A stretch of DNA of 64,000 nt from an uncultured Metabacillus sp. (GTDB lineage: Bacteria; Bacillota; Bacilli; Bacillales; Bacillaceae). This document shows, piece by piece, positions 5,653 through 38,926 of this stretch; position 1 is the first letter of the stretch; each line of letters begins with the position of its first letter. The notes under the pieces were generated by a model. It was not told the DNA's origin. It ran no database searches and saw nothing but the letters and a program-made list of their open reading frames with translations. The position numbers and the translations under genes were made by a program. Location of the stretch: NCBI RefSeq assembly GCF_947503125.1, contig NZ_CANNCR010000007.1:62001-126000 (forward strand), given 5' to 3'.

Positions 5653-5730
5653 TTAGAGCTCTAGTTCACCCATTCGAAGGAGCTCGACAACCGCTTGAGA
5701 ACGTCCCTTAACACCAAGCTTTTGCATTGC
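5653..5730 (-). pseudogene. gerE: gerE 3' fragment (last 25 codons plus stop)
   Basis: On the minus strand the frame reads AMQKLGVKGRSQAVVEL and ends LRMGELEL before a TAA stop. This is the C-terminal third of the LuxR-type regulator GerE, including the end of the recognition helix and the dimerisation helix. The first 49 codons lie 33 kb away at 38780-38926. The break falls inside the DNA-recognition helix, so neither half can work alone. With the halves joined the protein is 74 residues, the length I know for B. subtilis GerE. I read this as a developmentally interrupted gene rather than a decayed one. Confidence 0.93.
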
Positions 5731-5735
5731 ATTCG
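5725..5735. other. left attachment site of the gerE element
   Basis: CATTGCATTCG here matches CATTACATTCG at 38774-38784 in 10 of 11 positions, with CATTCG identical. The match falls exactly where gerE is interrupted. Confidence 0.85.
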
Positions 5736-5755
5736 TAATCGGGTTTGAAAACGAA

Positions 5756-7372
5756 CTAAATTTTTAAGTTCTCCAGTTCTATTGTTCCTAATGGAGTTAT
5801 AATAAGTACCAGCCCATTCCTATCCACAGTAATTACATCAATAAGCTGTTTTAAAACCAATTGCAACTCATCTATTTCAACAAAATTAAGATTCACCAAG
5901 CGTTGTAATCCATCATGAACTTGGGACTTTATATAGTCTAAGTTATTAGTTGTTTTACTCGTATCTTCTAGGTTTTTAAGTTCTTCTTGAATGTCCTTAA
6001 TCTCCGCTTCATAGGTTTCCTTCTCAAACTCAAATTGTCCTTTGTCTATGTTTCCTAAATTAAATTCTTTCCTGAGATTCATAAGAAACGTTCTATTTTG
6101 CTTTAATTGTGCTTCTAACTTCTTTCTCTTGTTTTTATTTGCCTTTTCATCGTTAGTGGTAGTAATTTCAAGACCTGCACTCACTTCATCAATATTTACT
6201 TTTTTTTCTAATTCCAACTTAATTGTTTGCAGAACTCCTATTTTAAATTCTTCAAATGGTGCCCACAAATCATTAATGCACCCTTTAGTTCCTATTCTCC
6301 GTCTAGATGAACATATTAGATACCTATACTCTTGACCTTTCTTGCCAACTTTCCCTGACTTCATGGAAACATAACTGCTACCACAGTGAGCACATTTAAC
6401 TAACCCTGAAAAAGGATTTACTTTCACATTTCGTACTCCTCCTCTTTTTCCTCCTCCCCTCTTAAGTCGAATTTTCTGAGCATCTTCAAATATTTTATCT
6501 GTGATAATTGGTTCCCACTCAATTTGTTCGTTTCTTTCCCATTTTTCTTTGGGCACTTGAACTAACTTATTTCTTCGATTTTGAACATCAGAGACATCTG
6601 TAACTTTTTTTACAGTATATTTCCCGTGGACATTTCTCCCTGTATACGCCTCATTTTGCAGCATTCTCTGTACTGTTGTAATGCCCCATTTTTCATTTCT
6701 CGGTGAAGGTATTTCCTCATGATTTAGATACTCTATTATTTTTTTTTCACCCATACCATTGATATATAAATTGAAAATTTTTCGCACGATGTCAGCTTTA
6801 TTTTCATCAATTTCTAAGGTTTTCACTTTGTTTTTAGACTTTTCATCTACTTTTATTATCTTTTTATAACCGTATGGAGCTGTACTTCCAGTAAAATTCC
6901 CTTTCAATGCAGATTCTCTAATACCAGCTCTTGAAGAAACACTTATTTGTTGAGACAGCTTTTGGTTAACTGCTGACATAATGGTGAAAACCATCTCATC
7001 GTTAACATCCACTTTTGAATCATAATTGTCATTGATGGATATCAGTCTAATCTCTAGGGCATCAACTAAAGTCCGTTTTAAAGCAAGTGCATCTAAAGAG
7101 TCACGAGAAAAACGCGAAAGTGAAGTAAAAATAACAGTTGAAAAATATCCTTTCTTGGCATCTTCAATAAGTAGTTTAATATCATCTCGCTCCATAATGT
7201 TGGTTCCCGTTGACCTATCTTCATATATAAATTCTGGTCGAACCTCTAAATCTTCCATTTTAGCTTTTTGGAGACATATTGATTTCTGATGTTCAGGTGA
7301 ATCCTTTTGTGATTCTTTTAATGTAGAAACACGCACATAAACGGCTGCAAGATTACTTTTGTCCTTCTGCAT
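5756..7372 (-). CDS. Large serine recombinase, probable gerE-element excisionase/integrase
   Basis: 538 aa. The N-terminal resolvase domain (1-150) has catalytic YVRVST, with both Arg and Ser present, and SRFSRDSLD with both arginines. A Recombinase domain follows (about 165-290: APYGYKK, then NLYINGMGEKKIIEYLN). Next comes a zinc ribbon with CAHCG and a later CSS/C cluster, then a coiled coil (about 400-480). This is the layout of SpoIVCA and phage large serine integrases. The stop lies 20 bp from the recombination core and the gene points into the gerE 3' fragment. A terminator-like hairpin and a promoter candidate lie in its leader. The most likely role is excision of the element during sporulation, restoring gerE. 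Confidence 0.93.
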   Translation of the reverse strand: MQKDKSNLAAVYVRVSTLKESQKDSPEHQKSICLQKAKMEDLEVRPEFIYEDRSTGTNIMERDDIKLLIEDAKKGYFSTVIFTSLSRFSRDSLDALALKRTLVDALEIRLISINDNYDSKVDVNDEMVFTIMSAVNQKLSQQISVSSRAGIRESALKGNFTGSTAPYGYKKIIKVDEKSKNKVKTLEIDENKADIVRKIFNLYINGMGEKKIIEYLNHEEIPSPRNEKWGITTVQRMLQNEAYTGRNVHGKYTVKKVTDVSDVQNRRNKLVQVPKEKWERNEQIEWEPIITDKIFEDAQKIRLKRGGGKRGGVRNVKVNPFSGLVKCAHCGSSYVSMKSGKVGKKGQEYRYLICSSRRRIGTKGCINDLWAPFEEFKIGVLQTIKLELEKKVNIDEVSAGLEITTTNDEKANKNKRKKLEAQLKQNRTFLMNLRKEFNLGNIDKGQFEFEKETYEAEIKDIQEELKNLEDTSKTTNNLDYIKSQVHDGLQRLVNLNFVEIDELQLVLKQLIDVITVDRNGLVLIITPLGTIELENLKI

Positions 7373-7399
7373 ATTGCTCTTTAACCTCCCTAAATAAAA

Positions 7400-7426
7400 A
7401 ACCTCATAGCATAAAGCTGTGAGGTT
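7400..7426 (-). terminator. terminator/attenuator in the recombinase leader
   Basis: AACCTCATAGC and GCTGTGAGGTT form an 11-bp stem with one G.T pair and a 5-nt loop. On the minus strand TTTTTTATTTA follows. It lies after the degenerate recombinase gene and before the active one, downstream of a promoter candidate, so it could gate recombinase expression. Confidence 0.8.
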
Positions 7427-7440
7427 TACTTGTTCCTTCT

Positions 7441-7469: not shown

Positions 7470-7472
7470 GTA

Positions 7473-7946
7473 TTATTTATTTCCTGTCCTCAAATGAGTA
7501 ACCATTTCCTGTGCAACTTCTTCCAGCGTTAATCCCATGTTTATTGCAGCATGCATTAATTGAAATTTTAACTCATCATCATATACACCGGAATCATAGT
7601 CTTCTTCTAAAGAAATGAGGCGAAGTCCTAAGCCATTTACCAGTATCCTTTTTAAAGTAAGTGTATCAAAAGTATCCAAAGAAAGCCGCGAGAGCGAAGT
7701 AAAGACCACAATTGAAAAAAGCCCTTTCTTTGCATCTTCAATTAGCAGTCTCATGCTCTCACTGTCCATAATTTTTGTTGAAGTTGAATCATCTTCATAC
7801 ATAAAGTTCGGTAGAAACTCTAAGTCTTCCATTCTTATTTTTTCCATGCAACTAGATTTTTGGTTCTCAAAGGAGTCGTGATTAGGACCTTGGTGATTAG
7901 ATACTCCTACATATATTGCTGCGATTTTAGCTGTCTCCGTACTCAT
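7473..7946 (-). CDS. Stand-alone serine-recombinase N-terminal domain, catalytically degenerate
   Basis: 157 aa, corresponding only to the resolvase domain of its neighbour, with clear paralogy (ESMRLLIEDAKKGLFS against DDIKLLIEDAKKGYFS). Key residues have changed: YVRVS became YVGVS (active-site Arg to Gly) and SRFSRD became SRLSLD (second Arg to Leu); the nucleophilic Ser remains. It lacks the DNA-binding Recombinase and zinc domains but has its own GGAGGAG ribosome-binding site and stop codon. It could be a decayed copy or, since the frame is intact and it sits upstream of the active recombinase, a regulator that binds it through the dimer interface. Confidence 0.85.
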   Translation of the reverse strand: MSTETAKIAAIYVGVSNHQGPNHDSFENQKSSCMEKIRMEDLEFLPNFMYEDDSTSTKIMDSESMRLLIEDAKKGLFSIVVFTSLSRLSLDTFDTLTLKRILVNGLGLRLISLEEDYDSGVYDDELKFQLMHAAINMGLTLEEVAQEMVTHLRTGNK

Positions 7947-7983: not shown

Positions 7984-8136
7984 TTATGAGGTTTTCTTAT
8001 TTTGATTATAGCGTAGTTCTTGTGATTGGATTAACACTTTATTAATTGTTTGACTTACAAGTTGGTCTACAACCTCCCCAGATGATTTTCCATGGGAACT
8101 AGCTGCTACCACAAAAGTTAACTTTTTCTTCGCCAT
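7984..8136 (-). CDS. Small protein upstream of the recombinase pair, unknown
   Basis: 50 aa starting MAKKKLTFVVAASS, with AAAGGAGATG a few bases before the ATG at 8136. A longer in-frame start at 8178 lacks a site. The product is basic and ends NQNKKTS. It is the first gene of a three-gene minus-strand set (this protein, the degenerate recombinase, the active recombinase), 37 nt from the next. Recombination directionality factors of serine integrases are often small, basic and encoded nearby, so that is a possible role. I do not recognise a family. Confidence 0.65.
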   Translation of the reverse strand: MAKKKLTFVVAASSHGKSSGEVVDQLVSQTINKVLIQSQELRYNQNKKTS

Positions 8137-8289
8137 AAAAAAATCATCTCCTTTCTCTGCATGGATATGCAGGCTCAAATTTGTCCTATTACTTTTTTGT
8201 TTTGTTAGGCTGATTTTTGCAGTTTTGAACTGTGTAAGTCAGTATACATTCCGAAAAATACAAATAAAATATTGATATTGGTTTTTTTT

Positions 8290-8407: not shown

Positions 8408-9475
8408 CTATTCATTAAAAGTTGGTCTAGAAATCTTCACAAGCTCAATCGCTTGCTCTAGTTCATATTCATGTCTACTCCATATATGGAATTCATCTTT
8501 GGTTTTTGTAACAGCAAAATCATGTGGATTCTCTACTGGAATAGGAAACTCTGAAATAAAGTCAAGGTTGCTATTGTAAACCCCCAATGAGATTTGGTCT
8601 CCATCGGCTAGAAACACATAGATATTTCCGTTGTCATCCCCGATAATATCCACATCATCAGTCATTTGAATTCCCTTTAATTCTCCATCTTCAAATAATG
8701 GTTCACCTGTTACAAGGTCTATTACATGAATACTGCCATCATCATCACTTACGAAAAATAATTTTTTCTTTACAGTATCCACATAAACTGTTGATTCGTA
8801 TGGGTTCTGCTTTTGAGTAGATGCCATTTCCAATACATCTTTAACATTATCGAACTCCAAAATAGGCTCTCCATCTATATACAATGTGTTTTTATCTTCC
8901 GTACTTTTGATTACCCCTTCTCCTTCAGAAGTGTTCACGAAATAAAGTTCACCATCTTCTTCGGGAATTTGCTTACCCGTATCTTTAATAACATTCATAT
9001 CATCAAAATTAAATTGTCCAATCGTCAATACATCATCTTTCATTTCATACAGCGTATTCCCCCTAGCATATTGAGGTTCGCGTTGTATCCTATGAAATCC
9101 ATTCTCTGCATTCGTAATGCTTTTCCATCCATTTTCACTACCTGATACCCCGATGGTTCCGTCATCATCATTAAAAGTCATATAAATTCCATCATCCGAT
9201 TCTACTACATAGATATCGGATGGGCTATTATGTTCCTTGTTCAAATCAAAAGTGCCTCCTCCAAAGACTTTGACTGTTTCGATTAGTTGAAAGCCTTCTT
9301 TATCTACACTAACTTCTCTACTTTCTTCTGTATTTTCTTCTTCCTCATTTTTAGTTGATTCTGTTTCTTTAGTTGCAGGTGTAACATTATTTTCACTTGC
9401 TTCTTCTTCATTTCCGCAACCTGCCAAGGCTAAAAATAAAAGTAAAATTAATAAATGGTAAGAGCGTAACTTCAA
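8408..9475 (-). CDS. Hypothetical lipoprotein
   Basis: 355 aa. The N-terminal signal ends in lipobox ALAGC (Cys about 20), followed by an acidic, low-complexity linker (about 22-55) and then a region rich in short beta-strand segments such as NTLYEMKDDVLTIG and NIYVFLADGD. This suggests a beta-propeller or repeat-sheet domain exposed on the outer face of the membrane. It has its own terminator. The downstream neighbour (in its direction) is the recombinase cluster; upstream lies a small membrane protein. I recognise no specific family and assign no function. Confidence 0.8.
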   Translation of the reverse strand: MKLRSYHLLILLLFLALAGCGNEEEASENNVTPATKETESTKNEEEENTEESREVSVDKEGFQLIETVKVFGGGTFDLNKEHNSPSDIYVVESDDGIYMTFNDDDGTIGVSGSENGWKSITNAENGFHRIQREPQYARGNTLYEMKDDVLTIGQFNFDDMNVIKDTGKQIPEEDGELYFVNTSEGEGVIKSTEDKNTLYIDGEPILEFDNVKDVLEMASTQKQNPYESTVYVDTVKKKLFFVSDDDGSIHVIDLVTGEPLFEDGELKGIQMTDDVDIIGDDNGNIYVFLADGDQISLGVYNSNLDFISEFPIPVENPHDFAVTKTKDEFHIWSRHEYELEQAIELVKISRPTFNE

Positions 9476-9968: not shown

Positions 9969-10021
9969 ATTAATTTTAAATTGTGCGCTTTATATGCTTG
10001 TGTCAACAGGTGGTGAAGCTA

Positions 10022-10360
10022 TTGGAATTAATACAAAAGTTGGGTGAGCGTATTCGATTTTTACGAAGAGAAAAAAACATAAGCCAAGAACAACTAGGAG
10101 AGTTATCGAACTTACATACGAACTACATTGGAGCAATTGAACGCGGCGAGAAAAACATTACTTTAGAGAGTTTGGTGAAAGTCTCTAAAGGATTGGAAGT
10201 TTCCTTAGATGAACTTTTTCGTTACTTGGAACCGATGGACGAGCCTGATGACCTGCAAAAGGTTGTTGATTTATTATCCAATCGGTCTTCTGAGGACCAA
10301 TCCTTAGCTTTTAACCTATTAGTTGAAATTTTTCATTGGGAACAGAAGAAAAATCAATAA
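10022..10360 (+). CDS. XRE-family helix-turn-helix repressor
   Basis: 112 aa from TTG 10022 with GGTGG 8 bp upstream; the frame also extends to 9983. An HTH_3 domain spans about residues 5-60 (GERIRFLRREKNISQEQLG, then LHTNYIGAIERGEKNITLESL). The C-terminal third is short, with EPMDEPDDLQKVVDLL, possibly for dimerisation. It is divergent from the membrane-protein gene, with two ACACTTATA(A)GTGT palindromes between them, so autorepression is likely. A terminator follows. Confidence 0.88.
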   Translation: MELIQKLGERIRFLRREKNISQEQLGELSNLHTNYIGAIERGEKNITLESLVKVSKGLEVSLDELFRYLEPMDEPDDLQKVVDLLSNRSSEDQSLAFNLLVEIFHWEQKKNQ

Positions 10361-10602: not shown

Positions 10603-12195
10603 ATGCAATACCTTTTTCATCAAGGGGTAAAAGAGACAGAAAAAATCTTTACTTTTCTTTACCCCACGACTAGTGATTTTCATGACCCATTTTTATTTAA
10701 CGATATGAAAGTAGCTGTGGATAGAATTATGAAAGCTATTATCAAGAAAGAGAAAATTTTTATTTTCGGCGATTATGACGGCGATGGTATTACATCAACA
10801 ACTTTACTTTTAAAATGCTTACAATTCCTAGGCGCAGATGTAAGTTATAAAGTCCCAATGAGAGCAGAAGGATACGGATTGAAGGCGTCTAGCATTCATA
10901 GATTACCAGATAACATTTCTCTAATTATTACTGTTGATAACGGGACAACTTGCCACCAAGCACTTACTGCAGCAGCAAAAAGAGGGATAGAGGTCATTGT
11001 CACGGACCACCACGAGATATCGGAAAAAGGGATACCAAACTGCCTTGCCTTTTTAAACCCCAAACGAAAAGATAACACTTATCCTTTTCAGCACCTTTCA
11101 GGTGCAGGTGTTGTATTTAAATTGGCTCACGCACTTCATCTTGCACTAGATAGGGACTGGAGTATCCATTATAAGGAATATATTGAATTCGCAGCCATTG
11201 GAACAATTTCTGACCTTGTGCCATTAAAAGGTGAAAATCGCACGATTTGTAAACTTGCTCTGGAGAAAATGAATCATGCACCTTCTGAAGTGCTCAAAAC
11301 CATTTGTGCACTCTTAAAGGTTAACAAGGTTAGCAGCAGCACGATATCGCATCAAATTGCTCCACTTCTAAATTCACATGGGAAACTTGGAGACCCAAAT
11401 CAATCGGTTGATTTATTAGTTTCGGAAAATGTTAACGCTGAGAATGTAATGAGACATATTGAGCTAAACGAGAAGCGAAAGCGTATGTCTGATATCCAAT
11501 ACGCCATCTGTGAAGAAGTAATCAAGAAAAACAAATCGTTTGAACAACCTGTCATCACTGTTTATGGTAATTTTCAAAAAGGATGTATCGGAAGCCTGGC
11601 TTCTAAAATTTCTAAAAAGTATCGAAAACCTGTCATCATTGTTGGAGAGAACGGTGCAGGTTCTGGAAGAAGTGTATGCAGCTCAAGATTTTCCCTGCTT
11701 AATACACTAAATCGATGTAAAGAGCATTTGATTAAATTTGGAGGACATCATTGTGCTGTGGGATTCTGTATAGAGCCTTCGGACCAAAACATTCAAACCT
11801 TCTTTGCAACTATTCAAGAAGCAGCCAAAAAAGAAGGCAGTTCCTTCTCATTCAAATGGTATTTTACTGAACAGTCACCCGTTGAATTCAAAAGGGGTAT
11901 TTTCGAGGGTTTACAATTGTTAGAACCTTTTGGAAAGGACTTTTACCAACCTGTCTTCCTATCTCCTGCGCTCCACATAAAAGAGGTTAAGATGTTTGGT
12001 GACAATGGAGAACACGCAAAATTAATTACTGATAACAGTGATACATTCTATTTTTATAATCAATCTTCCATGGCTCGAAGCTATAAAGACCAGTCCAGAA
12101 ACTTTTTCTACTCTTCAACATTAAATGACGAAAATGAATTTCTGGCACATGCCGTCGAACAGCCAATAAATTTAGAGTATTATGGTATATTCTAA
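10603..12195 (+). CDS. RecJ-like single-strand DNA exonuclease (DHH family)
   Basis: 530 aa from the first ATG in the open frame, though this ATG has no ribosome-binding site; the better start is at 10499 in another frame. DHH motifs are present: FGDYDGDGITS (motif I), TVDNGTT (II), VTDHHE (III) and the AAIGTISDLVPL segment (IV). A DHHA1-like region follows with the GRSVCSS and FGGHHCAVGF signatures. Chromosomal RecJ of Bacilli is about 780 aa, so this is a short form lacking much of the C-terminal domain. RecJ degrades ssDNA 5' to 3' in repair and recombination. On a plasmid-like element it may serve recombination or anti-phage functions. Confidence 0.85.
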   Translation: MQYLFHQGVKETEKIFTFLYPTTSDFHDPFLFNDMKVAVDRIMKAIIKKEKIFIFGDYDGDGITSTTLLLKCLQFLGADVSYKVPMRAEGYGLKASSIHRLPDNISLIITVDNGTTCHQALTAAAKRGIEVIVTDHHEISEKGIPNCLAFLNPKRKDNTYPFQHLSGAGVVFKLAHALHLALDRDWSIHYKEYIEFAAIGTISDLVPLKGENRTICKLALEKMNHAPSEVLKTICALLKVNKVSSSTISHQIAPLLNSHGKLGDPNQSVDLLVSENVNAENVMRHIELNEKRKRMSDIQYAICEEVIKKNKSFEQPVITVYGNFQKGCIGSLASKISKKYRKPVIIVGENGAGSGRSVCSSRFSLLNTLNRCKEHLIKFGGHHCAVGFCIEPSDQNIQTFFATIQEAAKKEGSSFSFKWYFTEQSPVEFKRGIFEGLQLLEPFGKDFYQPVFLSPALHIKEVKMFGDNGEHAKLITDNSDTFYFYNQSSMARSYKDQSRNFFYSSTLNDENEFLAHAVEQPINLEYYGIF

Positions 12196-15071: not shown

Positions 15072-18000
15072 TTAATTAAATACATGCTTATACTCAGATA
15101 TGCCATAAAGGTCGGTAACTGCATTCGTGACTGAAAGTTTTAAATCATCCTTCTCATTAATTAAAGCACTTCTCTCTCTTCTATCTAAACCTTTATTTGC
15201 TAGTTTTTTATTTATAGAATAGATTTCTCTGGTATTCATTACTATTGAATCATAAAGGTTCTTCTGTGTGCTATCTGTAAAATCCACATTAATTATAGGT
15301 AGTCTAGATAAAACAGAGGTTCCTCTGGAATGGAACCCACCTTCAAAGTCACTACCAATTACGCTAGTTAGCCATTCAATTGCAGGATGATTTAATACTG
15401 CTTGTATAAATTCAAGTACATATGGACTATTTGGATTCTCAGTAATTGCACAAAATCCAGCAGTTCCTCCAGAAGCAATTAGCATATCATGGTCATCATA
15501 TAAGTATAAAGGTTTTCTCGTAAGAATACCAACTATTAATTTAGGTGTGTTGATGAACCTTGTTAGAGCTTGAATTCGACCGTAATGATACCATGTATCA
15601 GGAGTAGCATGGGGTACATCTCTTCCTTTTGTAGCGCCTGACACCTGTTTAGGAACTAATCTGTCGTAAAAATCATTCAAGTATGCCCATGTCTCAGAGA
15701 AGAGGGATGACATCTCTGCTCTACTATAAATTTCACCATTCTCATTATAAGGGAATATAATCCATTTATTTGGTGAAACATAGTCGTAAGTATCAATGTT
15801 TTTTTCTATTTTTTTTGTTGGTTTATAGTAAGGCTTAAGAATATTTTTTTCAATCAGATATTCCTTTTCCTCTTTTAAAATTTTAAAATATTGGCTATCT
15901 TGGTCAATAATTTGGTCTTCACTAAACCAGTAGATTGGCACTGGGCGCTCTGCGCTTGTTTGAATCCCATTAAAAATTTCAGCTATATTTTCATCATTAA
16001 TTTTCCCACCAAATAGTGTGGCATTTTCATATAACTTATTAATTAACCTAGCTTTTTCTTCATCTGATACTAACACCCAAGAATTTTCACTTAAAATGTT
16101 GCTATTTAAAGTGACTCTCAGGAGTTTCTCTTCGTTTTCTTGGTTAATCCACCAGTCTTGTAGGTTTTCGACTTCTTCAAAAATAAACTGTGAACTTTTC
16201 AATTTACCTGCTAACAGTACAGAACTATAAGTTGTAACATTTTTGTCTTTAAATAATTGTGCTGCTCCGAAATCTATAAATTCTTTTACATATCCGTTCT
16301 TTGCTAAGATATCTCTCAACTTTTCTCCTGCAACAATTTTTGAGAATTTATTAGGAACAATGTAACATAGGATTCCATTATCTTTTAACTTATCCATAGC
16401 TCTTTCTATAAATAACATGTACTTATCAAATTGTTTATAGGAAGAAGTATACATTTTTTCATAAACCCATACCTCATCCCCTGGAAGCAAAGTATTCATA
16501 TCGGACGTTTTAACATAAGGTGGATTACCAATAATAGCATCAAATTTTTCTACATTATTATTAAATTTCCAGTTGAATGCTGAGATTAAGTATTTGTCGT
16601 TATCTTCAATTTTTCTTTTTTTGAGATGACCAAATTCTACAAGTGCATTTCCTGTTTTAATATTCTCATTTAGCACTGGTAACAATGAATTGCCTCTTCC
16701 TAAAGTTGGCTCTGTTTCTTCTTCCAATAGCTTTAATAATAAACTGAACTTACATACTTCAACAGCATTAGGGTCAATATCTAAACCATATATAGAAGAT
16801 GTAAGAATTTCTTTTTTTTCATTAAAAGGTAAAAAAAAGCGTTCATCCTCCCCTTCAATGAGAAAATCTTTATCAAACTTCTCATACCAGTTTCTTACTT
16901 GTTCCATCAAGTAGCCAAATGATTCAATAAGAAAAACACCAGAACCACAAGCAATATCCGCTATGTTTAGTTTTTTTATTTCATCCGGAGATTTATCTTT
17001 TGTCAGTGGTTCTAATGATTTTTTAACCATATACCTTACTATTTGAAGGGGTGTTGTCACAACATCTCTGTTAATATTCTCAGCTTTTTTAGATAAGATA
17101 ATTTTATTATCAGCAGTTAAAGTTAATTTCTCAGATAAAAATATCTCATAAATTTCACCGAGGATGTTTGCATCAATTATATTATAAATGAAGGGACTTT
17201 CTGGATAATAAAGGTCTTTAATAATATCGCTTACCACTTCATTATTTAGGTCTAAGACAATTTCAGCGTTTTCAAATATCCCAGAATTATACTTAACATC
17301 TGCCTCTTGCAATACTTTTAATAATTCATTCTTTAATCTATCTTCATTTTCAATAGTATCTAGCAATTTATAATATGTTGGTAAGTTTCTATCTTCACAG
17401 ATTCGTAAAAAGATAATTTGATTTATAAAAGATTGAACAGCATCATTTATATAGGATATTTGATATTCGGGATGGGTTTCGTATAAGTCGTTTGCTAAGT
17501 TTACTCTCCACTTGTTGATTTGCTTAAGAAATAGGCTGTCAACTGTTACAACATCCCGATTTACTACTAGATTTCCTAATTTCTCATCATAATCACTACT
17601 GTATACAGCCTCTTTAGATAGTAGAGAATGAATTTCTTCCCATTTTTCAAGATACTCCGTATAGTGATACCTTTTTAATAAAGCCTTCTGTGGAACATCA
17701 TCCTCCATTGGCGCCACTGTTGTATCATATATATATAAATATTCAAAATTTGTTAATACAGCTATTTGATGACGAGCAGTGACACCATAACTCCTGGTTT
17801 GAATAGCTGGCTCAGGAATGTTTGTAATGTCAACATGTGGCTTTTTAACTTCTATAAAAAATTTCTTTACTCCCCTAATGGTAATGGTGTAATCAGGTCT
17901 TTTTCCTTTTGTATCAAACTTCTCTGGTACTATTTCCCTTATGTATGGGTCTACGCCTTTTTTGTTACTAACATCCCATCCAAGTAGTTCGAGGAATGGA

Positions 18001-18104
18001 TTAATCAAAACATCCCTTGTTTCATGTTCATTAAAAGAATTTGCTTTATAACTGTCATAGTTTTTTTTGAAATTTTCTACTAATTTTTCTAAAAGACCCG
18101 TCAT
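15072..18104 (-). CDS. Type IIG-like restriction endonuclease/methyltransferase fusion
   Basis: About 1010 aa from the ATG at 18104 (AGGA 9 bp upstream; GTG 18125 is the alternative). The N-terminal nuclease domain has the PD-(D/E)XK pattern PDYTITIRGVKKFFIEVKKP near residues 75-95. The methyltransferase core follows, with motif I IADIACGSGVFLIESF (about 385) and motif IV AIIGNPPYVKT (about 545). The C-terminal 350 residues are TaqI-like specificity sequence with ASGGTAGFCAI and FHSRGTSVLSRLPI. Such enzymes cut and methylate with one polypeptide. With the adjacent methyltransferase and the upstream putative nuclease it forms a restriction-modification cluster. Confidence 0.9.
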   Translation of the reverse strand: MTGLLEKLVENFKKNYDSYKANSFNEHETRDVLINPFLELLGWDVSNKKGVDPYIREIVPEKFDTKGKRPDYTITIRGVKKFFIEVKKPHVDITNIPEPAIQTRSYGVTARHQIAVLTNFEYLYIYDTTVAPMEDDVPQKALLKRYHYTEYLEKWEEIHSLLSKEAVYSSDYDEKLGNLVVNRDVVTVDSLFLKQINKWRVNLANDLYETHPEYQISYINDAVQSFINQIIFLRICEDRNLPTYYKLLDTIENEDRLKNELLKVLQEADVKYNSGIFENAEIVLDLNNEVVSDIIKDLYYPESPFIYNIIDANILGEIYEIFLSEKLTLTADNKIILSKKAENINRDVVTTPLQIVRYMVKKSLEPLTKDKSPDEIKKLNIADIACGSGVFLIESFGYLMEQVRNWYEKFDKDFLIEGEDERFFLPFNEKKEILTSSIYGLDIDPNAVEVCKFSLLLKLLEEETEPTLGRGNSLLPVLNENIKTGNALVEFGHLKKRKIEDNDKYLISAFNWKFNNNVEKFDAIIGNPPYVKTSDMNTLLPGDEVWVYEKMYTSSYKQFDKYMLFIERAMDKLKDNGILCYIVPNKFSKIVAGEKLRDILAKNGYVKEFIDFGAAQLFKDKNVTTYSSVLLAGKLKSSQFIFEEVENLQDWWINQENEEKLLRVTLNSNILSENSWVLVSDEEKARLINKLYENATLFGGKINDENIAEIFNGIQTSAERPVPIYWFSEDQIIDQDSQYFKILKEEKEYLIEKNILKPYYKPTKKIEKNIDTYDYVSPNKWIIFPYNENGEIYSRAEMSSLFSETWAYLNDFYDRLVPKQVSGATKGRDVPHATPDTWYHYGRIQALTRFINTPKLIVGILTRKPLYLYDDHDMLIASGGTAGFCAITENPNSPYVLEFIQAVLNHPAIEWLTSVIGSDFEGGFHSRGTSVLSRLPIINVDFTDSTQKNLYDSIVMNTREIYSINKKLANKGLDRRERSALINEKDDLKLSVTNAVTDLYGISEYKHVFN

Positions 18105-18206
18105 ATCTTCACATCCTACTCTCACATATTCTTAGTAAAATTATACCAGCAATATATCATTATACAATTACCGTTTAAAAATTAACTTTTCATAGATAGA
18201 ATAAAA

Positions 18207-20136: not shown

Positions 20137-20519
20137 AAGTATCCTTCTTGCCTTAACGCATTTTCAATAACCAAATTTACCCATGCACTTTTAGAAATTT
20201 TTCGTTCAATATGATTGATGTTATCGTAAATCTTAACATTTTCCTCTTTTTGGTCTGCAATGAAGCGTTCTAAAACTTTATTTAATGAAGATTCAATGGA
20301 GACAATTATTTTTATGTACTCATTCTTTTCTTGTTTATCATATGAAATCAGTTGTCTTTCTTCCCGTTTTTCCTGCCCCTTAAGAATGCCATCCTCCTGT
20401 TCTTCTTCTGAATTTATTTGTAACCGTTTTTTAGCTTGATTTGTTCTCGTTCGTCTTTCCTCTTCTTTTGCAGCTTCTACTTCTATTTCATCTAGTTGGC
20501 TTAAAAAATCATCAGTCAT
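20133..20519 (-). CDS. Partition partner protein (ParB-like role), unknown family
   Basis: 128 aa, highly charged, with an acidic/basic N-terminal two-thirds (EEERRTRTNQAKKRL) and a conserved-looking C-terminus, SAWVNLVIENALRQEGYF, reminiscent of short ribbon-helix-helix or helix-turn-helix adaptors. The start overlaps the parA stop by 8 bp, so the two are translationally coupled. Plasmid partition operons usually pair ParA with a small DNA-binding protein; the palindromes at 21444 and 23646 are candidate sites for it. Assigned by context. Confidence 0.65.
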   Translation of the reverse strand: MTDDFLSQLDEIEVEAAKEEERRTRTNQAKKRLQINSEEEQEDGILKGQEKREERQLISYDKQEKNEYIKIIVSIESSLNKVLERFIADQKEENVKIYDNINHIERKISKSAWVNLVIENALRQEGYF

Positions 20520-21327
20520 TTAAACTCGCTCCCTTCCCCCTTAAAAACACTTTATTTGAGATGATACGAATATCTTCCATGATATTCTTTGACCAAACAT
20601 CTTTTAAATCATTCAACATGATACCTTCATTTTTACTCGTAGAAACTTTTTGAGAGTAACGAATGCTACCTAGAATTTTTTCTTCAGGTATTCCATTTTC
20701 AATTAATCGATTCCTGAACATTTCTAACTGTTTTAATGATTTCTCTTTAGGTCCTTTATGTTCTACTTTGTTAAAGACAATACCATAATCAATCTGATAA
20801 CCAGCTTCTTTATATTCACTTACTAATTCAACACTGCGTTCCGCAGAAATAATACCATCCATGTCGATATCGGTCGGTATAACAATAAAATTCGAAGCAG
20901 AAATTGAATAATTTACTACATCTGAATTCTCATTAGGATGTGTATCTAAAATGACAAAATCAAACATTTTGGTTAAAGGCTCTAATTTATTCCTTAAAAC
21001 ATCTAGCTGTTTTGGTCGTGGTACATTTTTTTTCACCCAATCAGCATAATCATCGACCCGCTCATCGCTTGGTATGTAGTAAATATTATCCCTGAACTTT
21101 TGAATTACCTCCGATGGCTTTGCAGCTCCCGTAAGCCAATCATATGCAGACACATTAAACGAATCCCTATCTTTTAAAAATCCAGTTGCAATACTGCTAT
21201 TTTGACATGTATCAATGATACAAACTTTTTTTCCTTGTTCTGACTGTTCTGCAATCGAGATGCTTAAAAACCGTGCTAGGGTACTTTTTCCTACTCCACC
21301 TTTACCTGAATAAACTGTTATAACTCC
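20512..21327 (-). CDS. parA: ParA-family partition ATPase
   Basis: 271 aa from the ATG at 21327 (GGGAGG 8 bp upstream; an in-frame start at 21369 is weaker). The deviant Walker A YSGKGGVGKST starts near residue 6, Walker A' CIIDTCQNSS follows, and Walker B is FVILDTHPNENSDVV. No N-terminal DNA-binding domain, so it is the small, type Ib-like form. It would bind ATP and non-specific DNA to segregate the excised or plasmid form of the element. The overlapping 128-aa gene downstream should encode its partner. Confidence 0.93.
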   Translation of the reverse strand, partial: GVITVYSGKGGVGKSTLARFLSISIAEQSEQGKKVCIIDTCQNSSIATGFLKDRDSFNVSAYDWLTGAAKPSEVIQKFRDNIYYIPSDERVDDYADWVKKNVPRPKQLDVLRNKLEPLTKMFDFVILDTHPNENSDVVNYSISASNFIVIPTDIDMDGIISAERSVELVSEYKEAGYQIDYGIVFNKVEHKGPKEKSLKQLEMFRNRLIENGIPEEKILGSIRYSQKVSTSKNEGIMLNDLKDVWSKNIMEDIRIISNKVFLRGKGASLND

Positions 21328-21443
21328 CATTAAATATTCCTCCCTACACCCTTCTAAATAAAGGTTCATTTATCACTTTCAGTAATTCAATCTTTATTCC
21401 TTTCTATAAAGATAAAAAAATAGAAATTTATATTTATAAAAAG

Positions 21444-22220: not shown

Positions 22221-22241
22221 AAGAGTGAAATTATCACTCTT
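22221..22241 (-). terminator. terminator of the putative initiator gene
   Basis: AAGAGTG and CACTCTT pair across AAATTAT and overlap the stop codon; TTTTTTTGTG follows on the minus strand. Confidence 0.75.
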
Positions 22242-24163: not shown

Positions 24164-24442
24164 TTATTTGTATGAGTTATTTAACCAATTAAAGAACCTT
24201 CGAGTCGGTATTATAATTCTACTGCCCACCTTCTTGCATGGAAACTCCGGATTCCTTGCCATTTCATAAATTTTGCTGGTAGAGACATTCAATATCTTAG
24301 CTGCCTTATCTGCTGTTAAAGTTTCACCGTATTGTTCCACCACATTGTTATTTCCTTGCATCTCCTTTAACTCTTCTAATATCTCCACTTTAATTTTTTG
24401 CAGTTCCTCGGAAAGAATCTTTCTTATAATATCTTCAATCAT
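24164..24442 (-). CDS. Excisionase-type helix-turn-helix protein
   Basis: 92 aa. An N-terminal helix (EDIIRKILSEELQKIKVEIL) likely oligomerises. The C-terminal half is a MerR/excisionase-like domain: TLTADKAAKILNVSTSKIYE, then PCKKVGSRIIIPTRRFFNWL. It overlaps the upstream gene by 8 bp, and that gene has the same layout, so the two appear to be duplicated, co-translated DNA-binding proteins. They lie near the tyrosine recombinase at 25080 and could serve as its directionality factors, or as regulators. Confidence 0.8.
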   Translation of the reverse strand: MIEDIIRKILSEELQKIKVEILEELKEMQGNNNVVEQYGETLTADKAAKILNVSTSKIYEMARNPEFPCKKVGSRIIIPTRRFFNWLNNSYK

Positions 24443-25079: not shown

Positions 25080-26300
25080 TTAATTGCTCTTTTTGAAATT
25101 ACGCTTTAATGGCGGGTCAAGTTTAACATAGCAGCGCCCAACTGTATCCGTTCTTGAGTGCCCTAAATGTAGCATGACATATAATTTTCTCATCTGGTCC
25201 CAAGTGAATGGTTTCATTGGCAAGCCTTTTTTTAGACGATAGTAGTTTAGTCTTTTCCTTTCATTTTCAATTCGTTGGTCTATTTTTTCTTTATTTGAAC
25301 CTTGTAAATTAACATAGTTCCTTATTTTCTTCCATAAATCTTTTTTTGAAGTGAATTTTGTAGAATCATATAATTTCTGTGCAAAACAGCGTCTCGTCGA
25401 GTGACTAGTGTAGCGTTTAGTGACATTCCCTTTTTCATCTCTTTCCACCAAACCAGCTTTTTCAGCTATTTTTTTGTAGGTCTCTTGCATATATTTTGAT
25501 GCAGCTTCTTTGCTCATTTGCTTTCCTTTCTTATCAAATAACGGAAAGAGTGGAGAACCGTCTGCTTTCCCTCTTGTTAAATTGGCATAAAACAGCTTCT
25601 GGCTCATATCCATCGGAACTTTTCTGCTAAAGTTATTTTTATCTTTTTCGTAATACTTTGTCATTTTTTCTAAGTCGATATTTCTTGCCTTTAAATTAAT
25701 TTCAGCCGTAATCCTTCCGCCCGTGTGTCTTTGTGCTAATATGATATTTTTAACCGTTTCGTAATTGAGGTTCGTTTTGGGGATAACTTTATCAATATTG
25801 TTAACTATCATGCGGTATTCCTGGTCTGTGGCTTTCATCGAGGTTCGTTCATCGTGGTGCATTGTGGCTTCTTCTTTGTAAATTTTATATAAGTAACCTG
25901 TGCCTTCTTCCACGCTCCCTTTTAAGCCTACTCTTACCTTTTCTATTCCGTTTTTCTTCCACACACCGTGCTCTTTTACAATTTCCTGCAACTTTCCGAA
26001 TGCATGTATACAATTCTCCACATGGCTTCCTGAAACCGGTTTTTTATCGCTTCTGGCATGGAATCGCTCAAGTAATCCATCAATATGTTTCTCAACCCAT
26101 TCTGCTTTCCAAAACTTTGGATTATAGGCATCACGGCTTTTTTTATCCGTTGCCTGTTCTTTAATTTCATCAAGGGTTGTGTTAAAAAAAGTTTTAACTT
26201 GCCCAAAATATCGTTTGGCTGTACTTTCCGAAATATCGCCTTTTTTTACACCACAATTAAATGCTTGTTCTACCATTGCCAAAGCATGGTCTTTCTTCAT
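25080..26300 (-). CDS. Tyrosine recombinase (integrase family)
   Basis: 406 aa from the ATG at 26300 (GGAGG 8 bp upstream; the ATG at 26306 touches the site). The catalytic set is visible: Arg in HTGGRITAEINL, HxxR in TSHSTRRCFAQKLY, and LGHSRTDTVGRCYVK with the LGH histidine and the Tyr nucleophile. The N-terminal part (about 1-150) would bind arms or core DNA. It is mid-element, beside two excisionase-like genes, and not at an element end, so it may serve dimer resolution of the circular form or mark an older inserted module. Confidence 0.85.
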   Translation of the reverse strand: MKKDHALAMVEQAFNCGVKKGDISESTAKRYFGQVKTFFNTTLDEIKEQATDKKSRDAYNPKFWKAEWVEKHIDGLLERFHARSDKKPVSGSHVENCIHAFGKLQEIVKEHGVWKKNGIEKVRVGLKGSVEEGTGYLYKIYKEEATMHHDERTSMKATDQEYRMIVNNIDKVIPKTNLNYETVKNIILAQRHTGGRITAEINLKARNIDLEKMTKYYEKDKNNFSRKVPMDMSQKLFYANLTRGKADGSPLFPLFDKKGKQMSKEAASKYMQETYKKIAEKAGLVERDEKGNVTKRYTSHSTRRCFAQKLYDSTKFTSKKDLWKKIRNYVNLQGSNKEKIDQRIENERKRLNYYRLKKGLPMKPFTWDQMRKLYVMLHLGHSRTDTVGRCYVKLDPPLKRNFKKSN

Positions 26301-26404
26301 AAACATCGCCTCCCTTCACGGTATTTTTTAAAATAAAATTATTTAAAATTCTAGAATTTTGTTTTTTATTTAGATTAGAAGTGTCTTCTAGTAAGCACCT
26401 TTTT

Positions 26405-28994: not shown

Positions 28995-29942
28995 CTATAC
29001 AATTCTAAAAAAATCGTATTTACTTCGTTTATCTTTCAAATCATAGAATGGATTATGTTCAAATTGAGCTGGTATAACCTCTGAATATAGTTTTACATGT
29101 AGCCGTTTAGTATCGATTTCTACCGAAACATAATCTACATTTTCCTTGAATAAATCTGAATACTCAGTGTGTGTTTTCGAAGGAAATCTATACTTCATTA
29201 TGTCGTTATATTTTGGTTGAAAATACCTAATCAAAGCAGCTTCTGTAAAGTTTATCTCCTGTTTCTTACGAATTAAATCGTAAGGTCGCTCAGTTATTTC
29301 CAATTGTTTAATAAAAATATCAAAGCTTTTTTGTTTATCTTGCTCTATAGGAGATAGAAAACCTATAGTGTTTCTATCAAAATCCCAAGAAGATAAGAAG
29401 ATACTCTTATCATCTTCCTTTTCTGCATAAATTTTCTGCAAGGTTGAATGAGATTTTAATCTCTCATAGACTGTTCTCTCACCATCCTTACCAAAAGAAC
29501 GACCAATATAAACAACTTCACAATCCATTACATATCCATTCGCTATTAAGAACATAAATGAATTAGCCTTAAGTACGTAATTACCTAATGCATCTTTAAT
29601 TTCTAAATCATCTTTATTCGGACTTAATACAACTTCTAATTCTTGGTTTTTCAAGTTATTAATCAACCTAAATTCAACTTTATCATCAGCTCTATCATCC
29701 ATAATCTTAATTTCCAAATCTATATATTTTTCATCTATTTTTATAGAATCACGAACAAAAATTATTTTAGGTGCTTTAACAACCATATAAATATGCATTT
29801 TAGGTATTTGATTGTACTTATTTTCAAGCTCTAATAAACTTGCAAAATCATAATGTCGAAAAAACATTCCATATGATTCCACCATTGAAATACCAAGGTT
29901 TGAGCCAGTGGAAAACTCTTCCTTATCCTTCATTTTTCTCAT
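28995..29942 (-). CDS. GIY-YIG-like nuclease domain protein
   Basis: 315 aa. The core pattern starts at about residue 145: CEVVYIGRSFGKDGERTVYE with RLKSHSTLQKI just after, corresponding to the YIG strand and the Arg helix. The late glutamate motif is FTEAALIRYFQPKYN (about 232-247), as in GIY-YIG proteins (E..LI...P.YN). The first strand is VVYIG rather than a textbook GIY, so catalysis is not certain. The N-terminal 140 residues are mostly beta and unfamiliar. In this cargo context a defence or homing-like nuclease is plausible. Confidence 0.65.
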   Translation of the reverse strand: MRKMKDKEEFSTGSNLGISMVESYGMFFRHYDFASLLELENKYNQIPKMHIYMVVKAPKIIFVRDSIKIDEKYIDLEIKIMDDRADDKVEFRLINNLKNQELEVVLSPNKDDLEIKDALGNYVLKANSFMFLIANGYVMDCEVVYIGRSFGKDGERTVYERLKSHSTLQKIYAEKEDDKSIFLSSWDFDRNTIGFLSPIEQDKQKSFDIFIKQLEITERPYDLIRKKQEINFTEAALIRYFQPKYNDIMKYRFPSKTHTEYSDLFKENVDYVSVEIDTKRLHVKLYSEVIPAQFEHNPFYDLKDKRSKYDFFRIV

Positions 29943-35204: not shown

Positions 35205-36110
35205 TTAAAACATCATGTCATCCAATTTTTCTGAAACATCCTGTAAAGTATCCATTGCATACCGCCTGGTGATTTCTATCGATTCATGACCTAAAATATT
35301 CGCTACACTCACGATATCAAGTCCTTGACCCTTGATTAGATTACGAGCGTAAGTATGTCTAAACACATGGGCATGTAAATGGATTTGTTCTTCTTCTGGT
35401 AACAACGCATTATACAATTTTCAGACCTTCTCTACGACCCGTTGAAGCGAGCGTTTCTCCATTCTTTTTTTGAAATTAGATAAAAATAATGCTTTATCGT
35501 TATCTTCTCTGGTATCCAGGTACTGCTGCACATAGAATTTTGCTTCTTTCGGAAACGGAACTTTTCTTGGTTTATTTCCTTTTCCTCTGACTGAAATGAC
35601 TCCACCTCTTTTGAAAACTAAGTCTTTGCGATTCAACCGTTCGCATTCCTCGATTCGAATCCCAGTATATGCCAACAGATGAATAATTGCCATGGTTCGT
35701 TTATTCCCTGTGTTTTCGGCAGTTCTCAAGACACCTCGTAATTGATTTTTAGTTAATGCTTTTATTTCTAAATCAAATACACTTGATTTCTTTGGTTTTC
35801 GGATATGACTGCATATGTGCTCCATCCCATTTGCTATCGTAAATTGCTTAATGGCATTAAAATGGCGGATAACGGTATTGTGTGATTTCTCTTCTTTTTC
35901 CATGAAATTGATGTATCCTTGAACATCACTTCTCAACAAATCATAAAGCGACCGGTTATGGTCATCGAGATATTTTTCAAACTTTTTTACATCCGCTAGA
36001 TATCCATCTATGGTTTGGTCAGCTTTTCCATGTTCGATTAAATAGTGTTCAAACTTTTGAAGTGGGTTAAAATCTACTTCGAATAATTGTGCGACACTTT
36101 TTTTCTCCAT
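35205..36110 (-). pseudogene. XerD-like tyrosine recombinase interrupted by an in-frame TGA
   Basis: The frame spans about 301 codons, the usual Xer length. It has an N-terminal core-binding domain (FEHYLIEHGKADQTIDGYLA), catalytic Arg in AYTGIRIEECERLN, HxxR in HAHVFRHTYARNL, LGHES, and the Tyr in ITRRYAMDT. A single TGA at 35421-35423, after QRVVEKV, splits it without any change of frame. A TTG three bases on has AAGG 8 bp upstream and opens the last 70 residues, which carry HxxR and Tyr. Nonsense mutation is simplest; readthrough or split translation is possible. Confidence 0.88.
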
Positions 36111-36310: not shown

Positions 36311-37441
36311 TTATCCATATAATATTTTATATAATTTTCTTATTTCTTCTTTAGCCTGTCCATTGTAATCACCACTAATATCATCTTCGCTTTCTAGTTC
36401 GAAAGAATAGCTTGGGCTAAAAACATTTCCCGTCAGTTTGTAGTCTTGCTTATAATACTCTATTCCCCAACCTCTTTTGAATCTTCCTAGAGATACAAAT
36501 ATTACTTTCCTTACTCCTGCATGAAATAACAGATTTCTAAGGGTTTCAAATGAAGTACCATTGGTCAAGTAATCATCTATAACGCAAATTACCTTTCCTT
36601 TTAACTTATTATTTTTTTTATACTCTGGATTGATGTTGATACTTGGAAAATGCCTAGAACAATATAATCTGTCATCATTATTTGTAAATGAGTGACTTTT
36701 TCTAATAGCAGTGTGTCTGACAAAAAGAGGAGCAGTTAATTTTTTCCCCATTAAAATCCTAGCTCTTTCTTTTAATGCCCAAAGGTCTTGATTTATTTCA
36801 GTTCCAGATGATGGCATTATCGCCCATATATCAACTTCTTTAAAAACTGAATTATGAATTATAGAGGCTAAAAAGTGCAACTGTAAAACCTTAAAGTATT
36901 GTTTATTACCAAATTTGAGTAAGCTTCTAAAACCATCTACTATCTCTTTTTCTGATTTTGTTACATCACCCTTTGTATTGGCACTAGTTAAAGAATAGAC
37001 TTTTGCATTTTCATCGATATCAAGTTCGTAAAACCAAACCTTTTGATTCTTAATAATCTGAATAACCTTATAAAGAGCTTTTGGTGAGGGAATTACGAGC
37101 CCGTATTTGGAAGGTAATTCATCCTGTACATCTGACCATTCTGGTGTTAAGAGTGCTGTTTTTGTACTTGCAGCGATTCTTAAATCATCATCGTTACTTC
37201 CGACTATAATATATGTACCTGAGTTATCATTTTTCACTAAATCTCTTACTTGCCATCTATAACAGAATTCTACAAATTCAAACTCCTTGATTATATCTGC
37301 TATTTTGGAACGGTCATGTGACATAATAATGATTTTATCACCGTCATTATTCAATTTCTTCAATAATTTTTTTATGCCGTTATAAATTTCATTTTCTTTA
37401 TTTATTAAGGTAGCAGTTGGAAAAACGATGGTCTTACTCAT
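36311..37441 (-). CDS. Phosphoribosyltransferase-domain protein paired with DprA-like protein
   Basis: 376 aa. The N-terminal 110 residues look HAD/Rossmann-like (SKTIVFPTATLINKENE, later DKIIIMSHDRSK). The C-terminal domain has the PRPP-binding signature KVICVIDDYLTNGTSFETLR near residue 295, with the two adjacent acidic residues of type I phosphoribosyltransferases. Its start overlaps the DprA-like gene by 8 bp, so the two are a translational unit. I recall DprA-like/PRTase pairs listed as candidate anti-phage systems, but cannot check this here. Confidence 0.78.
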   Translation of the reverse strand: MSKTIVFPTATLINKENEIYNGIKKLLKKLNNDGDKIIIMSHDRSKIADIIKEFEFVEFCYRWQVRDLVKNDNSGTYIIVGSNDDDLRIAASTKTALLTPEWSDVQDELPSKYGLVIPSPKALYKVIQIIKNQKVWFYELDIDENAKVYSLTSANTKGDVTKSEKEIVDGFRSLLKFGNKQYFKVLQLHFLASIIHNSVFKEVDIWAIMPSSGTEINQDLWALKERARILMGKKLTAPLFVRHTAIRKSHSFTNNDDRLYCSRHFPSININPEYKKNNKLKGKVICVIDDYLTNGTSFETLRNLLFHAGVRKVIFVSLGRFKRGWGIEYYKQDYKLTGNVFSPSYSFELESEDDISGDYNGQAKEEIRKLYKILYG

Positions 37442-38468
37442 GCCCTCTTTCCCCCTCGATGTAATCTAAAATAATAGAATTTACCAGGTCATCTACAGAA
37501 ACACCTTTATTCTTAGATACGAATTCAAGTTGATTAATCAAATCAGCGTCTATACTAATGTTCGTAAAGTGTTTTTTATTAAACGCAGTTTTTAATACAT
37601 CACTAGCATCTTTTATAGGAATAGCACTTTCAGTTTTTAATAATTTTTGGACTCCTGATGAAAGATTTCCATCTTTTCCGTTATCAGAAGGGCAAAAAAT
37701 TTTTTTCCCTTGTGTATAGGCAAACCGAGCAGTATGCATAGTACCACTTTTCTCGCTGGCTTCAAAAACAATTACCCCACTTGATAACCCTGAGATTAAG
37801 CGATTTCTAGCTACAAAATTTGATTTAAGACCTTTGGTTCCGATGGGATACTCGGAAAGTAAAGTTCCTCCATTTTCTAGAATAGCATCAGCTAACTTAC
37901 TGTTTTCTTTTGGATATATAGTATCTAATCCATGAGCAAGTACAGCAACAGTTGTTCCTCTATTTTCCAAACATACTCTATGGGATTCAGCATCAATCCC
38001 TTTTGCTAAACCACTCACTATAACTGTATTAGCTTCAACCAATCCCTTTACAATTCTATCCACAAGATGAATTGAGTGTGGACTCGGATTTCTTGTTCCT
38101 ACACATGCAATCGATTTATCTACATTTAGATTTTCTAAGTTGCCTTTAACAAATAGAAACAATGGACTTTTCTTAATTGCCTTCAAGTTAGCAGGGTAAT
38201 CCTCATCATAATACGACAATATCTTAATGCCCTCATCAGCACTTTTTTGAATCAGATTATTTACAGCTTCCTCAGCCTTTTCAACCTTTTCTTCGTCGTA
38301 AAATACTTTTAGATGGTCATCGTTAAATACATTATGTTTGAATTGTAAATCAAAAGCTCCACCATTGAATAATGCGATTAAATCCTTATTAGAGAAATGA
38401 TTAACAATATAATTTATTAAAGCACCATCTATACCCAAATGCTTTAATATTAAAAGTTCTTTAAGCAT
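37434..38468 (-). CDS. DprA/Smf-like Rossmann-fold protein
   Basis: 344 aa. It has the DprA core: YPANLKAIKKSPLFLFVKGN, CVGTRNPS, VIVSGLAKGIDAESHR, GLDTIYPKEN, NFVARNRLISGLSSGVIVFE and SGTMHTARFAYTQGK. Canonical DprA loads RecA on ssDNA during transformation and ends in a winged helix; this one ends in a short segment (LINQLEFVSKNKGVSVDDLV) more like a ribbon-helix-helix. It overlaps a phosphoribosyltransferase gene, unlike the chromosomal dprA locus, so I read it as a defence-type or nucleic-acid-sensing paralogue. Confidence 0.85.
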   Translation of the reverse strand: MLKELLILKHLGIDGALINYIVNHFSNKDLIALFNGGAFDLQFKHNVFNDDHLKVFYDEEKVEKAEEAVNNLIQKSADEGIKILSYYDEDYPANLKAIKKSPLFLFVKGNLENLNVDKSIACVGTRNPSPHSIHLVDRIVKGLVEANTVIVSGLAKGIDAESHRVCLENRGTTVAVLAHGLDTIYPKENSKLADAILENGGTLLSEYPIGTKGLKSNFVARNRLISGLSSGVIVFEASEKSGTMHTARFAYTQGKKIFCPSDNGKDGNLSSGVQKLLKTESAIPIKDASDVLKTAFNKKHFTNISIDADLINQLEFVSKNKGVSVDDLVNSIILDYIEGERGHE

Positions 38469-38666
38469 CCTTATCCTCCAGGTATTACAATTATTTAAGC
38501 TTTAATTCTGGTTCCATGATTGAAAATATTCATTGTTTTATACAAAAAAGTTATAATCCAATTTTACCACATTTACATAAAGTTACTTTCATCAGATATT
38601 AAGTATTACTCATTAAGTCGAAACTTGTTAACCCGTTCTAACTGAAACTTCCCTTACTTCTACATA

Positions 38667-38700
38667 GAAAAGAACTTAGACGCTTGTCCAAGTTCTTTTC
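38667..38700. terminator. hairpin between gerE 5' fragment and dprA-like gene
   Basis: GAAAAGAACTT and AAGTTCTTTTC form an 11-bp stem. It would end the truncated gerE transcript on the minus strand, though the T-run there is short. Confidence 0.55.
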
Positions 38701-38737
38701 TGGTCGTTTTTCATTTAAGCTCAACTTCCAAACCCTT

Positions 38738-38926
38738 TCATATCAACACTTCATTAGTTATGCTTTCAGTGAACATTACATTCGAGATGTGGTTTCGAAC
38801 CGTTTTTTCGCTTATGAAGAGCTCGCTAGCAATCTCCTTTGTTGTCTTATCTTGGACTAACAATTCGAATACTTCTCTCTCTCTTTTCGTGAGTAATGGC
38901 TTTGATTGAAACTCTTTCTCTTTCAA
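38738..38926 (-). pseudogene. gerE: gerE 5' fragment with chimeric tail
   Basis: TTG start at 38926 with AAGGAGG upstream. The first 49 codons are the GerE N-terminus: KPLLTKREREVFELLVQDKT, EIASELFISEKTVRNHISN, the LuxR-type helix-turn-helix. After the recombination core (38779-38784) the frame continues into the element for 13 codons (VMFTESITNEVLI) and stops at 38738. The missing C-terminus lies at 5653-5730. GerE controls late mother-cell coat genes together with sigma-K. The fragment keeps its own sigma-K-like promoter, so excision would give a functional gene in place. Confidence 0.93.
38774..38784. other. right attachment site of the gerE element
   Basis: CATTACATTCG, matching the left site CATTGCATTCG in 10 of 11 positions. 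Confidence 0.85.

Follow-up and report, generated by a model that had tools for sequence, protein, structure and literature searches.

The gene gerE of an uncultured Metabacillus sp. is split into two minus-strand parts by a 33,049-bp element that has CATTCG at each end. Both parts lie in one stretch of 64,000 nucleotides (contig NZ_CANNCR010000007.1, positions 62,001 to 126,000), which we call the window. The split is precise, both gerE halves are conserved, a sigma-K-like promoter is kept in front of the gene, the integrase gene is intact, the two ends of the element are dyadic about the AA of codon 49, and a 50-aa open reading frame (ORF) is conserved next to the integrase. A first-pass annotation had proposed that the interruption is an intervening element excised in sporulation, and this is still the best explanation; excision itself, most likely in the sporulating mother cell, is what we infer. 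We consider it probable that a non-phage integrative defence island entered gerE via its own integrase and leaves it in the sporulating mother cell.

The break and its surroundings comprise the following features:

38780..38926, minus strand: gerE codons 1-49 (5' part, TTG start), all 48 residues that follow the start matching B. subtilis GerE (1fse)
5653..5730, minus strand: 3' part of gerE, codons 50-74 and the stop codon, residues identical to the intact GerE of the relative L027
38779..38784, read on the plus strand: core CATTCG, gerE 5' junction
5730..5735, read on the plus strand: core CATTCG, gerE 3' junction
38991..39018, minus strand: sigma-K-like promoter AC-N17-CATAATATA, 64 nt before gerE

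The 5' part equals B. subtilis GerE (1fse, 74 aa) over residues 2-49 and diverges afterwards. The 49 codons of the one part and the 25 residues plus stop of the other, compared apart and not joined, amount to 74. The annotation had placed the split between codons 49 and 50 on the same strand, with CATTCG shared by the two break points and 74 residues in total; its coordinates, core and length were all confirmed. The promoter was matched to the sigma-K consensus, and a like site precedes gerE in 17 of the 18 relatives checked. Uninterrupted gerE genes, which the annotation had suggested for comparison, differ from the 3' part of the window at synonymous codons only (against nine intact copies, 2-15 synonymous codon differences and no non-synonymous one), a result that is partly biased as 3' parts and intact copies were retrieved by a pattern fixing many residues. 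Among 25 distinct 3' parts, the window's included, we counted 296 synonymous and 4 non-synonymous codon differences, with the same pattern bias. We searched the assembly of this genome (5.44 Mb in 244 contigs, completeness 100%, contamination 2.78%) for a second intact gerE, which the annotation had named as the refuting case, and found none. The only GerE ortholog found there is the N part, and the other five PF00196 matches lie in open frames of 209-236 aa. RacE of this genome scores 397 bits against the B. subtilis protein and 378 bits against that of B. anthracis, so the host probably lies outside the cereus group.

The precedent in B. cereus to which the annotation had pointed is real. 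The element gin of B. cereus ATCC10987 interrupts the same gerE codons and is described as excised in sporulation by GirC together with the 42-aa GirX, with excision by the two proteins demonstrated in vivo and in vitro (PMC5595907). The gene-strand core is CGAATG in the window and CATCTCAAA in gin, and the AA of codon 49 is within both.

The two ends of the element pair with each other around this AA:

38757..38780, minus strand: element end, right arm of the dyad
5734..5757, minus strand: element end, left arm of the dyad

In the window 12 of 24 positions pair, compared with a mean of 6.6 for shuffled arms (share of shuffles reaching 12 or more, 0.017). Element ends were dyadic around the AA of codon 49 in all 14 end pairs tried (12-21 of 24 positions), which are part of those that could be paired, and the gene sides of the junctions pair less (7-11). 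We also moved the dyad centre by up to 6 nt each way in the window and in Xenia, a Fernvirus phage of Paenibacillus larvae; both peak at the AA. Cleavage of gin is predicted at the same AA (PMC5595907). Two types of ends were distinguished, corresponding to the recombinase classes A and B described below: class A ends have TTTCAAAC/GTTTGAAA-like arms and class B ends GTTTGCAA/TTGCAAAC-like arms.

Next to the left end lie the recombinase genes and a small ORF:

5756..7372, minus strand: large serine recombinase, 538 aa, gerE-type class A, with resolvase, recombinase and zinc-ribbon domains
7473..7946, minus strand: truncated recombinase paralogue, 157 aa, invariant Arg14 changed to Gly
7984..8136, minus strand: 50-aa ORF, candidate recombination directionality factor, upstream of the recombinase
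8166..8188, minus strand: TAGGACAA-N11-CATA, conserved box in front of the 50-aa ORF that may be a mother-cell promoter

The 538-aa recombinase gene ends 25 bp away from the gerE 3' part, and its product retains the invariant residues of its family. The annotation's description of it as SpoIVCA-like was broadly right, with the refinement that in our tree it belongs to a clade of gerE-type recombinases; its best NCBIfam match is CcrB, at 88.8 bits against a cut-off of 900. The tree of 45 rows places 30 gerE-type recombinases on one side and 15 others on the other (branch support 100/99), where CBP1 was counted as gerE-type without any gerE evidence and G227, G341, G254 and G459 because gerE is split in their genomes; four rows lacking an intact ORF and two further profile matches were left out. 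The gerE-type recombinases form two classes, A (8 rows) and B (22 rows). Class A consists of the window, G218, REN3, G049, G169, G394, G227 and phage Xenia (support 100/100), so that the window recombinase groups with enzymes that lie next to gerE halves or come from split-gerE genomes. Its nearest relative is that of G218, at 62%.

The 157-aa copy, judged by its sequence, is probably inactive. It lies between the 50-aa ORF and the full recombinase, and the same order is seen in G218 (L094), where the catalytic Ser of the truncated copy is replaced by Ala. The two loci thus probably hold two dead recombinase copies at the same place.

To see how often gerE is broken, we used intact GerE as query against 80 genomes of the host's family, all of which matched. 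In 15 of the 80 the match stops by residue 60, corresponding to a break after codon 49, and 14 of these carry an element (6 read at the break, the other 8 called from match coordinates plus the recombinase locus). G014, with one intact and one half copy of gerE, is additional to the 15. In a sample of the order, gerE is split in at least 16 of 397 genomes across 10 families, and 17 genomes had no match at the limit set; a split was called where the best E value was weaker than about 1e-27, and genomes at about 1e-28 to 1e-32 were not opened. The 24 flagged genomes comprise the window and 23 that were opened, and 8 of the 24 had a diverged but intact gene. All 16 split genes break directly after HISN, at codon 49. 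The same break is thus found in other genomes, and chance is therefore excluded for the split of gerE. Our survey suggests that codon 49 is a common integration site in Bacillus-like bacteria, beyond the B. cereus and B. toyonensis cases described earlier.

The 3' part of gerE was located in 22 of 27 recombinase loci. It is missing at L015, L087, L089, L091 and L097, and was not found in longer stretches of G254, G459, G227 and G341. At L119 and L120 (G254 and G459) the recombinase adjoins the gerE 5' part in the opposite orientation, with no 3' part found within 20 kb. Two further genomes have unusual arrangements. In G013 (L079) codon 49 of gerE runs into racE in one 332-aa frame without an element, which may be the trace of an imprecise excision. 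In G014 (L076, L077, L078) one contig stops one base past codon 49 of the gerE 5' part, another has an intact gerE, and another ends on the recombinase side and then the start of the 3' part. For G014, a class B relative and not the window itself, such contig ends are as expected if the sequenced culture mixed excised and integrated forms.

In the host's family, where candidates were collected by similarity to the window recombinase, a window-like enzyme (E <= 1e-30) occurs in 17 of 80 genomes, namely the 14 element-split genomes, G014, and G022 and G068, the last two having it although their gerE is intact. This corresponds to 15 of 15 element-split or mixed genomes versus 2 of the 65 others. 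Outside the family, a profile of ten recombinases scored 516-751 bits in all 12 split genomes and at most 224.4 bits in 19 controls with intact gerE, 7 of which have some match at 1e-40; it found no match in G013. Phage records matching the recombinase at 1e-30 number 20, of which 19 have P. larvae as host (42.5-44.5% identity) and one is CBP1 of Caldibacillus (32.7%). One plasmid matches, in part only. A collection of viral contigs contains 46 loci that encode a related recombinase. A gerE half is present in 16 of them (the C half in 13, the N half in 3) and the attachment-site core alone in 2; 9 have neither, and 19 are too short to tell.

The 50-aa ORF is likely a directionality factor, a reading we apply to this and the other small ORFs because of their size, their place and the precedents GirX, SprB and CD1234. 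These three have 42 aa (PMC5595907), 58 aa and 72 aa, respectively, and SprB of SPbeta and CD1234 of the C. difficile skin element are described as small sporulation-induced directionality factors. A small ORF stands just upstream of the recombinase in six of seven class A loci (window, REN3, G049, G169, G218 and G394); the set was chosen by eye among the ORFs upstream of the seven recombinases, and G227 had none. In the window and G218 it sits upstream of the truncated recombinase copy. Leave-one-out searches recovered all six (E 2.4e-11 to 2.3e-5 among 24,715 ORFs), and the best match outside the set was a second copy of the ORF in G218, with others at 0.0024 or weaker. A six-frame search of the complete Xenia record gave no match to the family (best E 0.65).

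Class B has a small ORF of its own. In small class B elements of about 4-5 kb (G133, G088 and G311) it encodes 41-46 aa with a motif like PLxxGKExYG; it is also present in G071, G030 and G052, more weakly in G341, G044, G019 and G021, and in none of the class A loci. The gerE elements at L116, L117 and L118 are very small, about 4-5 kb each, and hold a recombinase, a small ORF and few other ORFs.

The TAGGACAA box with CATA 10-11 nt further on occupies the equivalent place in four of the six class A loci; G218 has AATA and G169 lacks the box. Class B loci carry a different box. The class A box fits the SpoIIID consensus WWRRACARNY and is a hint only. In B. subtilis SpoIIID and sigma-E drive spoIVCA, and in C. 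difficile they drive the skin factor (PMC517825, PMC5025042).

We propose the following mechanism. A non-phage defence island with restriction-modification, ShosTA, RecJ and ParA genes would enter gerE at codon 49 by its own large serine integrase. In a sporulating cell the mother cell would make the 50-aa protein, which would act as directionality factor and switch the integrase to excision. The 33-kb circle would then leave and gerE would be continuous in time for transcription by sigma-K, while the forespore would retain the element and pass it on through the spore.

Several observations weigh against this mechanism. No intact gerE was found in this assembly; the dyad of the window (12 positions) is the weakest among the 14; the left-out ORF was outscored by the second G218 copy in two of the leave-one-out runs (G169 and G394); and the small ORF of the window belongs to another family than that of class B. 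The TAGGACAA box is also not enriched in the genome itself (4 matches versus 6 in a reversed control), and its link to SpoIIID or sigma-E is therefore weak. The lack of an intact gerE in the assembly would equally be expected if the element were stuck, a recent or decaying insertion having inactivated gerE and left a strain with poor coats or no sporulation, and the gerE-racE fusion of G013 demonstrates that gerE can be lost at codon 49. We nevertheless regard a stuck element as unlikely, given that the recombinase is intact with the invariant residues of its family, the element ends keep their dyad, the sigma-K-like promoter is retained, and the 3' part, which has no start of its own, shows no non-synonymous change against the nine intact copies.

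Alternatively, the element could be excised as an ordinary prophage or integrative and conjugative element, in response to stress or conjugation signals and without a link to sporulation. A mobile life of this kind is suggested by its tyrosine recombinases, ParA and pilin-like gene, and phages carry related integrases. Against it stand the nature of the target, a mother-cell gene, the small ORF with its own upstream box, whose CATA part is like a -10, and the behaviour of gin, which is reported to leave in sporulation and not under mitomycin C (PMC5595907); we consider such excision very unlikely. An assembly artefact or chimera is hardly conceivable even for a draft genome of 244 contigs, with both gerE halves on one contig and the same break in other genomes. 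Excision of a defence island in the sporulating mother cell is the reading that we retain.

The cargo of the element was examined by scanning its proteins with Pfam (33 proteins), NCBIfam (20) and PHROGs (20):

8408..9475, minus strand: putative lipoprotein, 355 aa (weak matches below cut-off)
9983..10360, plus strand: HTH_3 regulator
10603..12195, plus strand: RecJ-type exonuclease, 530 aa
13419..15059, minus strand: Type II DNA methyltransferase, M.Eco57I-like
15072..18125, minus strand: Type IIG restriction-methyltransferase
20512..21369, minus strand: ParA-type ATPase
24164..24442, minus strand: HTH_17 small DNA-binding protein
25080..26306, minus strand: tyrosine recombinase, 408 aa
31473..31871, minus strand: type IV secretion system (T4SS) pilin-like protein
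35205..36110, minus strand: second tyrosine recombinase, in two ORFs
36311..37441, minus strand: ShosT-like (E 9.6e-51)
37434..38468, minus strand: ShosA-like, DprA family (E 4.9e-90)

The adjacent ShosT and ShosA genes constitute a predicted ShosTA system. The genome holds another RecJ (816-aa frame, contig C5), and in 100 genomes matches to the RecJ of the element above the level of chromosomal RecJ occur elsewhere only in G078 and G082, both with gerE intact. The split tyrosine recombinase and the one at 25080-26306 make nested elements possible. The annotation had called the element plasmid-like, with Rep and Par genes. ParA is indeed present, while no Rep was recognised by the three databases in the proteins scanned. 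A plasmid or replicating element is therefore not supported, although a Rep of an unfamiliar type may be present; the cargo resembles a defence island more than a plasmid. ParA and the ORF at 22234-23280 gave no plasmid match at the limits set, no viral relative was found for 22234-23280, and on plasmids 28995-29942 has only distant hypothetical matches. Nor is a prophage supported: no terminase, portal, capsid or tail genes were seen by Pfam (33) or PHROGs (20).

Besides the recombinase and its truncated copy, the only cargo shared with other gerE elements (E <= 1e-5) is a weak helix-turn-helix match to G019, in a search covering eight relatives in 15 pieces, of which REN3 and G052 are incomplete. 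The relatives carry cargo of their own, examined in sets of ten proteins and not as whole elements: GajA, GajB, a PDC-S37/Hhe-like protein and a dGTPase in G049; a Type I specificity subunit, LmuA/LmuB and a reverse transcriptase in G071; and a terminase and tail protein in G044, which by these genes is probably a prophage. The gerE element of G030 (L064) has an LXG-domain protein of 760 aa.

Outside the element, gerE has these neighbours, arranged as in B. subtilis:

39061-39528: 4HBT thioesterase, on the 5'-part side
39983-40744: Fe-S protein, on the 5'-part side
4995-5462: MarR protein, on the 3'-part side
4170-4985: racemase, on the 3'-part side
2928-4004: Germane-domain protein, on the 3'-part side
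2038-2805: RNase PH, on the 3'-part side

This kind of element has been known since 2017. We found no later survey of gerE insertions in the open-licence PubMed Central literature, although one may exist elsewhere; nor did we find there any account of how far the hosts range, of two classes, of the families of small ORFs, of a tie between gin and the P. larvae phages, or of defence cargo beyond the restriction-modification of gin. Our analysis supplies a testable candidate directionality factor and suggests why spore-formers could tolerate a phage integrating into gerE. It also shows that defence genes can reside within a sporulation gene, with ShosTA and restriction here and Gabija and Lamassu proteins in relatives. 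More broadly, we lean towards the view that codon 49 of gerE is a long-standing docking site of one large serine integrase clade, shared by temperate phages and non-phage defence islands across the order, with two attachment-site specificities and two families of directionality factors of about 40-60 aa under mother-cell control. If so, mobile elements would repeatedly have converted the last regulator of the mother cell into a switch by which they are removed solely where this is costless.

Among known systems, SCC elements with CcrA/CcrB resemble the window element in having large serine recombinases on genomic islands (PMC5595907 and general background), and differ in their target and in a CcrB match far below cut-off. 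The skin (sigK), SPbeta (spsM) and vfbin (spoVFB) elements share the split mother-cell gene, a serine recombinase and, where known, a small directionality factor, but have other target genes and are prophages or prophage-like. Closer is Xenia, whose integrase is 44.5% identical over 98% of the query and is followed directly by AACCACATCTCCAAT, which resembles the gerE core and lies within an inverted repeat, at about 38,424. Xeni_IDv2, a phage close to Xenia but a different isolate, is described as integrated in the P. larvae gerE gene, with a duplication of nine bases and the phage opened at its base 38,418 (PMC12453123, 2025). Unlike the window element, Xenia is a tailed phage and has no match to the 50-aa ORF family.

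The closest parallel is with gin. The gerE-intervening elements described in PMC5595907 come from B. cereus and B. toyonensis, together with a prophage in "B. glycinifermentas" (spelling of that paper). Both gin and the window element interrupt gerE at codons 47-49, each with a short core common to its two ends, and both have a serine integrase, about 30 genes and no phage genes found, as well as recJ and restriction-modification genes (present in gin of ATCC10987; recJ is not in every gin). They differ in that gin has three serine recombinases, girA, girB and girC, whereas the window has one intact and one truncated, and in the tyrosine recombinases, ShosTA and ParA of the window element. Within this comparison, we propose that the 50-aa ORF may be the functional counterpart of GirX.

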